DNA of 64,000 nucleotides from Methanothrix harundinacea 6Ac (GTDB lineage: Archaea; Halobacteriota; Methanosarcinia; Methanotrichales; Methanotrichaceae): assembly GCF_000235565.1 (NCBI RefSeq), contig NC_017527.1:1054001-1118000 (forward strand), read 5' to 3'. Positions 14,106-15,821 of this stretch are shown piece after piece. The notes under the pieces were generated by a model. That model was not told the origin of the DNA. It ran no database searches and was given only the letters and a program-made list of their open reading frames with translations. Both the position numbers and the translations under genes were made by a program. Every line of letters starts with the position of its first letter. The first letter of the stretch is position 1.

Positions 14106-14208
14106 TTTATTAGGGAGTAGTTGCTGCCTGAATATAAAAAAGTTTCTGTTAAGCCCCGAAAGATGGCCCGATCGGCGGAGGGGCCGGGCCGCCGGGGTCG
14201 TGAAAACC

Positions 14209-14218
14209 CTTAAATACT
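14209..14218 (+). promoter_or_regulatory. TATA box of the L18e ribosomal operon
   Basis: CTTAAATACT lies about 26 bases before the first base of the leader's outer stem (14241). The transcript is therefore predicted to begin almost exactly at the start of the folded leader described next. Confidence 0.55.
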
Positions 14219-14238: not shown

Positions 14239-14346
14239 GATCCGCAGAGGGAGCGGAAGCCCGCCCCTCTCTGGCGCAGGGACCCGAAGGTCCGAACGCG
14301 CCCCAGGGCGCGTGAGTCGGCCCCCGGCGAGGGGGCTATGCGGAGG
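14239..14346 (+). ncRNA. Multi-hairpin structured leader of the L18e operon
   Basis: The untranslated leader folds by eye into a closed multibranch structure. An outer stem pairs TCCGCA (14241-14246) with TGCGGA (14339-14344), which overlaps the GGAGG ribosome-binding site of rpl18e. Inside lie four hairpins: GAGGG/CCCTC with inner GCGG/CCGC (14247-14269), GGACC/GGTCC with a CGAA loop (14280-14293), CGCGCC/GGCGCG (14297-14312) and GCCCCC/GGGGGC (14320-14336). It is not a tRNA. Such a leader could bind a ribosomal protein of the operon and sequester the start region. I know no described family matching it. Confidence 0.6.
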
Positions 14347-14352
14347 ATTGAT

Positions 14353-14715
14353 ATGAAGAAGGTCAAGAAGACAAACCCGGGATTGGTCACCCTCATCGAC
14401 GATCTCAAGGCCGCCACCCGGAACGACGGGTCGGCGATCTGGCGCGACGTGGCCAAGAGGCTGGAGAAGCCGAGGCGGAACTACGCCGCAGTAAACGTCA
14501 GCAAGATAAACAGGCATACCGCCCCCGACGACCTGGTCCTCGTGGCGGGGAAGGTCCTGGGGACCGGCGATCTCGATCACAAGGTGACGGTGGCCGCCCT
14601 CCAGTTCAGCGAGCAGGCCGCGTCGAAGATAAAGTCGGCCGGTGGCGAATGTCTCAGGATAGATGAGCTGGCCGATAAACACCCGAAGGGTTCCGGCATA
14701 ATTATTTTAAGGTGA
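14353..14715 (+). CDS. rpl18e: 50S ribosomal protein L18e
   Basis: A 120-aa protein with the L18e pattern: an N-terminal helix with NPGLVTLI, then [16 protein letters not shown] and the late DHKVTVAAL strand. It is the archaeal/eukaryotic relative of bacterial L15. I chose ATG 14353, preceded by GGAGG at 14342-14346; the in-frame ATG at 14338 lies inside the leader stem. First gene of the operon L18e-L13-S9-RpoN-(tRNA-Pro)-RpoK-S2, a conserved archaeal order. Confidence 0.95.
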
Positions 14716-14719
14716 TCTG

Positions 14720-15136
14720 ATGATTATTGACGCATCTGGGATGATCCTGGGACGTCTGGCCAGCCTCGCCGCTTCAGAGCTCCTCGCAGGAGAGGAGATA
14801 GCGATCGTCAACGCCGAGAAGGCCATAATCTCAGGTCGGCGAGAGACCATCTACCGGGAGTACGAGGAGATGAAGAACAAGGGCTCCACCGAGAAGGGGC
14901 CTCACTATCCCAAGCGGCCCGAGAGGATCCTGAAGAGGACGGTCCGCGGCATGCTCCCCCACAAGACGAAGCGCGGCCGGGACGCCATGTCCAGGCTCAG
15001 GATTTATGTAGGAGTCCCTCCCGAGCTGAAGGGGATGGAGATGGAGCGGCCGGAGGCTGCGAAGATGACGCGCCTGGGCACCGGGAAGTATGTGGAACTT
15101 GGCGACGTAAGCCGGATGTTCGGATCAAAATTCTGA
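14720..15136 (+). CDS. rpl13: 50S ribosomal protein L13
   Basis: A 138-aa archaeal L13. Motifs: [14 protein letters not shown] at the start, the ISGRRE turn, then [12 protein letters not shown] and the [15 protein letters not shown] stretch that contacts 23S rRNA. It starts 4 bases after the L18e stop, so translation is coupled. Confidence 0.96.
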
Positions 15137-15145
15137 GGGTTCAGC

Positions 15146-15544
15146 ATGAAGATAACCAACTCATCGGGTAAAAACAGAACGGCGATCGCCAGGGCCACCC
15201 TGACGGAGGGGAAGGGCAGAGTCAGGATCAACAGCAAACCCCTGGAGATCTTTGAGCCCGAGCTCGTCAGGCAGAAGATCATGGAGCCCGTGATGATCGC
15301 CCAGGAGAAGGCCTCGGGGCTCGACATCGACGTCAAGGTCCGCGGAGGCGGGTTCATGGGTCAGGCTGCTGCCGTCCGGACCGCCATCGCCCGCGGGATC
15401 GTGGAGTGGACCGGAGACACCGCCCTCAAGGAGGCCTACATGGAGTACGACAGGTCTCTTCTGGTCAACGACCACCGGCAGAAGGAGCGGAAGAAGGTCG
15501 GCGGCCCCGGTGCAAGAGCCAAGTATCAGAAGTCTTACAGGTGA
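15146..15544 (+). CDS. rps9: 30S ribosomal protein S9
   Basis: A 132-aa S9. It has the [13 protein letters not shown] opening, [18 protein letters not shown] and the basic C-terminal tail [14 protein letters not shown] that reaches the P-site tRNA. It starts 9 bases after rpl13 in the same operon. Confidence 0.96.
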
Positions 15545-15550
15545 GCTAGC

Positions 15551-15736
15551 TTGATCCCTGTACGATGTTTCACCTGTGGAAACGTCATCTCTGATGTATG
15601 GGAGGAGTACAAGGAGCGCACCAAGTCTGAGCCACCGGGGAAGGTGATGGACGATCTGGGCATCGAAAGCTACTGCTGTCGTCGCATGCTCCTGACCCAC
15701 GTGGAGATCGTTGACGTGCTTCGGCGGTATCAGTAA
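15551..15736 (+). CDS. rpoN: DNA-directed RNA polymerase subunit N
   Basis: A 61-aa subunit, the homologue of eukaryotic Rpb10. The zinc ligands are visible as CFTCG near the start and CCRRM near residue 44. It begins at TTG 6 bases after the S9 stop. This small protein helps hold the RpoD/RpoL platform of the archaeal polymerase. The tRNA-Pro gene follows directly. Confidence 0.95.
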
Positions 15737-15743
15737 AAGGCGT

Positions 15744-15821
15744 GGGGTTGTGGGGTAGCCTGGTCCATCCCTCGGCGTTCGGGACGCCGTAACCTGAGTT
15801 CGAATCTCAGCAACCCCACCA
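15744..15821 (+). tRNA. tRNA-Pro (CGG anticodon)
   Basis: A full cloverleaf: acceptor GGGGTTG/CAACCCC, anticodon stem CGGCG/CGCCG around loop TTCGGGA (anticodon CGG), T arm CTGAG-TTCGAAT-CTCAG, discriminator A and an encoded CCA end. No intron. It sits between rpoN and rpoK on the same strand, so it is probably cut out of the operon transcript. Confidence 0.95.

Follow-up and report, generated by a model that had tools for sequence, protein, structure and literature searches.

To our knowledge, only a small number of cis-regulatory RNAs have been described in archaea. Autoregulation of an archaeal ribosomal protein has been demonstrated for the L1 operator of Methanococcus, which mimics the L1 site of 23S rRNA; unlike the leader described here, that operator lies within coding sequence, serves another protein and has another fold. 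A 2020 survey of ribosomal protein leaders (Eckert and Weinberg, PMC7247131) lists for the archaea only L4 (Archaeoglobi), eL15 (Euryarchaeota) and S15 (Halobacteria, Methanomicrobia). In Methanolobus psychrophilus, most ribosomal protein mRNAs carry long 5'UTRs, with a mean of 165 nt (PMC5378194). Among bacteria, the rplM-rpsI operon of E. coli is controlled by one of its own products, uL13, which acts as a repressor through a structured 5'UTR of 157 nt (PMC10931766); an L13 leader is also present in Bacteroidia (PMC7247131).

The RNA found upstream of rpl18e in Methanothrix harundinacea 6Ac appears, judging from its sequence, to be a putative ribosomal protein leader with its own, previously undescribed fold. 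It resembles the L13 leaders of E. coli (rplM-rpsI) and Bacteroidia in having a structured 5'UTR before an L13-S9 operon, with the Shine-Dalgarno (SD) sequence within reach, and control would likewise be exerted on translation. It differs from them in domain and anatomy, and in the first gene of the operon, which is rplM in the bacteria and rpl18e here. Like the archaeal L4, eL15 and S15 leaders it was predicted from covariation and gene context, but the genes, lineages and structures are different, and the rRNA mimicry proposed for eL15 and S15 was not found for the rpl18e leader. With the archaeal L7Ae leaders (PMC5539422) it shares its position in the 5'UTR of a ribosomal protein gene and, if our interpretation holds, autoregulation; those leaders are one short k-turn stem-loop each, upstream of l7ae, whereas rpl18e is preceded by a five-way junction. 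An earlier sequence-only reading of this DNA had known of no described archaeal leader of such shape, and none matching was found in Rfam 15 or in the literature searched, which lay largely outside the subscription journals. Rfam 15 gave no family at gathering thresholds for the leader region and, at E<=5, no hit that overlaps the leader, and the Gram-positive L13_leader family did not match it. For the L18e class, the same literature contained no ribosomal protein leader.

The window analyzed is a stretch of 64,000 nucleotides (contig NC_017527.1, positions 1,054,001 to 1,118,000), numbered from its first letter. The promoter, the leader and the genes that follow it are arranged as listed below, with the basis of each assignment.

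14203-14216, + strand: promoter, with BRE-like AAAACCC and TATA box TTAAATA (14210-14216); sequence
14241-14246, + strand: P1 5' arm, UCCGCA; fold and covariation
14247-14269, + strand: P2 hairpin, variable in length; fold, changes on both sides in 6/6 pairs
14273-14279, + strand: J2/3 linker, consensus GGCRYAU, unpaired and conserved; alignments A2, A3 and A4
14280-14293, + strand: P3 hairpin, GGACC/GGUCC; fold, 93% of cells paired, changes on both sides in 4/5 pairs
14294-14295, + strand: J3/4, GA, nearly invariant; alignments
14296-14313, + strand: P4 hairpin, ACGCGCC/GGCGCGU; 96% of cells paired, changes on both sides in 5/6 pairs
14314-14318, + strand: J4/5, GAGUC, unpaired and nearly invariant; alignments
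14319-14337, + strand: P5 hairpin; fold, 92% of cells paired, changes on both sides in 4/5 pairs
14339-14344, + strand: P1 3' arm, UGCGGA, overlapping the SD; fold and covariation
14342-14346, + strand: Shine-Dalgarno GGAGG, 6 nt 5' of the start codon; sequence
14353-14715, + strand: rpl18e (L18e/eL18), first gene of the operon; Pfam PF17135, E 7.7e-16
14720-15136, + strand: rpl13 (uL13); Pfam PF00572, E 8.8e-20
15146-15544, + strand: rps9 (uS9); Pfam PF00380, E 1.2e-39
15551-15736, + strand: rpoN (RNA polymerase subunit N); Pfam PF01194
15744-15821, + strand: tRNA-Pro(CGG) gene between rpoN and rpoK; 54.2 bits on a short stretch

The five-way junction formed by P1 to P5 occupies positions 14241-14344, between the promoter and rpl18e. 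Minimum free energy (MFE) folding of 14239-14346 (-65.6 kcal/mol) places an outer stem around P2, P3, P4 and P5, which is the layout of four hairpins inside UCCGCA/UGCGGA that the sequence-only reading had drawn, and none of 200 dinucleotide shuffles folded as well (z = -3.6). The MFE structure has in addition a 3-bp pseudo-hairpin in J2/3, which reads GGCGCAG in M. harundinacea; relatives do not retain it. The same reading had the outer stem covering GGAGG. The overlap is real, but it is partial: the P1 3' arm takes in the first three bases, so that only GGA is covered in Methanotrichaceae, and in the U-A version of P1 coverage is reduced to GG. The GGAGG itself is kept in every aligned relative. 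On both sides of P4, the GA of J3/4 and the GA of J4/5 could form tandem sheared G-A pairs.

Promoter and stem keep a fixed distance. The elements AAAACNCTTAAATAC / TTATATAC are kept upstream of rpl18e in Methanotrichaceae, where the same upstream layout recurs in 36/36 L18e loci, and the centre of the TATA box lies 28-30 nt from the CCGC of P1 in all 36. With this spacing the expected start falls a few bases 5' of P1. The transcript is therefore predicted to begin at the P1 stem, with the structure inside it, as the sequence-only reading had also expected from the TATA box.

Comparison with relatives, the check suggested together with that reading, revealed strong covariation in all five stems, the outer one included. 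The alignment comprises 84 distinct homologues from Methanotrichaceae, ANME-2, Methanoperedenaceae, Methanocella and one further Methanosarcinia family. Standard pairs occupy 91.1% of its cells, compared with 25-40% in controls with a slid partner strand, and 20 of the 28 pairs have changes on both sides (409 such cells; shuffling gives 154). The alignment had been fitted to the structure, and for this reason a ranking by weighted, APC-corrected G was also made of all 4,061 column pairs. The top seven are proposed base pairs, above every background pair, and 12 proposed pairs exceed the 99.9th percentile of the background, with all five stems represented. The secondary structure is conserved and supported by covariation. 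The strongest covarying pair is in P1 (columns 6-215 of alignment A4; U-A 47, C-G 35), whose compensatory forms are CCGCA/UGCGG and CCGUA/UACGG. In the locus from the ANME-2 cluster HMMV-459B1 (L210), P1 was rebuilt as UCCAA/UUGGA, and P2 and P5 were lost. The P1 signal is largely one clade-level change and thus counts as roughly two independent compensations instead of dozens. With the coding sequence included, the paired probability of P1 is 0.11 in M. harundinacea (median 0.71 over 44 species), and several species have a P1 that is weak in silico. Because P1 is only marginally stable in this setting, the case for it rests on covariation and not on energy. An alternative switch pairing between J2/3 (CGYA) and the P1 3' arm (URCG) was considered and discarded; it is possible in only 52 of the 84 sequences and is not maintained.

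L18e is present in 60/61 relatives. Two models were used for searching, a core model of P4 and its flanking conserved sequence (R1) and a full leader model (R2). With R1, almost all Methanosarcinia genomes sampled from the phylum gave a single site each, G411 being the exception listed, and Methanocella-like genomes gave weaker matches. All five stems are found upstream of L18e in ANME-2, Methanoperedenaceae and Methanocella loci, and R2 matches 21/21 complete Methanoperedenaceae, 7/7 complete ANME-2 and 4/4 Methanocella genomes. The leader is single-copy per genome, with rpl18e directly downstream at every locus inspected. R2 had no match at the L18e loci of Methanomassiliicoccales, Methanoregulaceae, ANME-1/Methanophagales, Methanothermococcus, Thermococcus, Methanobacteriaceae and one Bathyarchaeia genome. 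Three sites were rejected as false, two from R1 (G121 and G318) with no rpl18e downstream and one from R2 (G172) with a score near chance (E 0.044). The L18e locus of G411 (L153, Methanosarcinia family f6) has a divergent leader scoring 29.9 bits with R2; J2/3, P3, P4 and GAGUC are retained, P1 is unrecognisable and the SD reads GAGGG. In one Methanocellales and one Thermococcus genome, apparent tRNA genes are located upstream of rpl18e instead of a leader.

Methanosarcinaceae harbor a derived version, which retains UUCGAACGC-P4-GCGUGAGU-P5-UGCGGAGG and is without CCGYA and the GGCRYAU linker; P4 is the core common to both versions. In the consensus fold its closing stem is AUGUUC/GAACAU, whose GAACAU arm is located just 3' of GGAG, between it and the start codon. 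All six pairs form in 36/41 distinct Methanosarcinaceae sequences, and the four 3' arms observed (GAACAU, GGACAU, GAGCAU and GGGCAU) are all pairable. As these changes are one-sided and G-U compatible, the evidence for this stem is weaker than for P1. The structure thus reaches the expression platform in both versions, with the P1 arm on GGAGG and the Methanosarcinaceae stem near the SD. This suggests that enclosure of the SD region is the conserved property and that the closing helix is exchangeable.

With structure, conservation and GGAGG overlap observed, the leader is probably an autogenous translational operator of the L18e-L13-S9 operon, a regulatory role that we infer together with protein binding, repression, the identity of the protein and the start at the stem. 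The leader would be the 5' end of the rpl18e-rpl13-rps9-rpoN(-rpoK-rps2) mRNA. A ribosomal protein of the operon present in excess over free rRNA would bind the P3/P4/P5 junction core and stabilise the marginal closing stem, leaving GGAGG either paired or enclosed and sterically blocked, and rpl18e and the coupled cistrons would then be translated less. Plentiful rRNA would titrate the protein away, so that P1 could open and the 30S subunit bind. A ribosomal protein is the likely ligand because there is one copy per genome, placed before a ribosomal protein operon, and a short, marginal SD stem beside a junction whose unpaired nucleotides are invariant fits an operator stabilised by its ligand.

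The ligand is perhaps uL13, which we rank first by analogy with the bacterial leaders; L18e, the promoter-proximal product of the operon, may be the second candidate. A more specific proposal, that L18e (eL18) is the repressor and the leader a new archaeal RNA family, its five-way junction unlike the rRNA site of the protein, and that Methanosarcinaceae swapped the SD-closing helix and kept the binding core, is possible, though we regard it as doubtful. If it were true, this helix swap with a retained binding core would be a natural rewiring of a translational switch. The best score of R2 on the rRNA loci of M. harundinacea was 10.2 bits (E 0.41), for a site that is not within the rRNA genes. 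The 23S rRNA has one exact GAA...UGAGUC site only, and this GAA, 6-bp helix and UGAGUC (about 1772/1877) was rejected as mimicry since in the Rfam LSU structure its strands have other partners. Without resemblance to rRNA the ligand cannot be read from mimicry; three-dimensional mimicry is possible. S2 would become less likely as the ligand if the tRNA-Pro gene that lies ahead of rpoK were excised from the transcript. This gene occupies the corresponding position in 20/20 Methanotrichaceae loci scanned, and the lack of a hit at 15744-15818 in the whole-window Rfam tRNA scan at gathering thresholds is a filter effect. Excision would cut the operon mRNA in two, separating S2 from the leader and perhaps uncoupling rpoK-rps2 from it.

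A chance fold of GC-rich DNA, which the 75% GC of the leader in M. harundinacea might suggest, has a negligible probability, as it is refuted by covariation across elements whose GC content spans 42-75%. It is more conceivable, while still unlikely, that P1 is a by-product: P2-P5 would bind the ligand, a steric block alone would act on translation, and P1 would reflect the need for GGAGG plus a chance 5' complement. P1 is indeed short and marginal, the Gs on its SD side cannot vary, and Methanosarcinaceae are without it. However, pair 6-215 tops the covariation ranking, the stem was rebuilt as a new helix in L210, and Methanosarcinaceae have a substitute stem, all of which argue against a by-product.

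Two further explanations also start from a structured RNA. In one, a cis element without feedback by an operon-encoded ribosomal protein, the reader could be something else, such as an L7Ae-type k-turn binder, or the element could serve in exosome/RNase processing, in mRNA stability or as a translation enhancer. The sequence evidence does not fix the identity of the ligand, GA/GA beside P4 permits tandem sheared pairs, and L7Ae regulates several archaeal mRNAs, including its own (PMC5539422). Against such a reader, the 3-nt stretch GUC is found 3' of the GA step, whereas a k-turn has its bulge on the 5' side, and the element is part of a multi-way junction; a canonical k-turn at P4 was rejected on these two grounds. 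The element is also tied to a single ribosomal protein operon, and its GGAGG-covering stem is preserved, so we give this explanation a small probability. Smaller still is that of a riboswitch or thermosensor, in which the junction would sense a small molecule, an ion or temperature and gate the SD. A multi-way junction whose unpaired nucleotides are conserved, with a marginal stem over the SD, would suit it, but the leader occurs only before a ribosomal protein/RNA polymerase operon, once per genome, and not before metabolic genes. The host genera extend from thermophiles to cold-adapted organisms, and this speaks against a thermometer. 

The operator reading would place feedback, if true, on an operon joining ribosomal proteins to RNA polymerase subunits, in hosts responsible for making or oxidising a large share of the world's methane, and the leader is backed by covariation across two classes. 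As the derived version is found in the genetically tractable Methanosarcina, the ligand, the mechanism and the stem exchange are directly testable.

The genes 3' of the leader encode L18e, L13, S9, RpoN, RpoK and S2, according to Pfam. The AUG of rpl18e was placed at 14353, a position indicated both by the distance from the SD and by the alignment of relatives. Within the leader, an in-frame ATG at 14338 leads ORF callers to start rpl18e 15 nt early. In Methanosarcina, rpl18e has an apparent TTG start, GGAGGAACATACATTG (L037-L039, L041-L043 and L188-L195). Elsewhere the start codon is mostly ATG, with TTG or GTG in some ANME-2 genomes.
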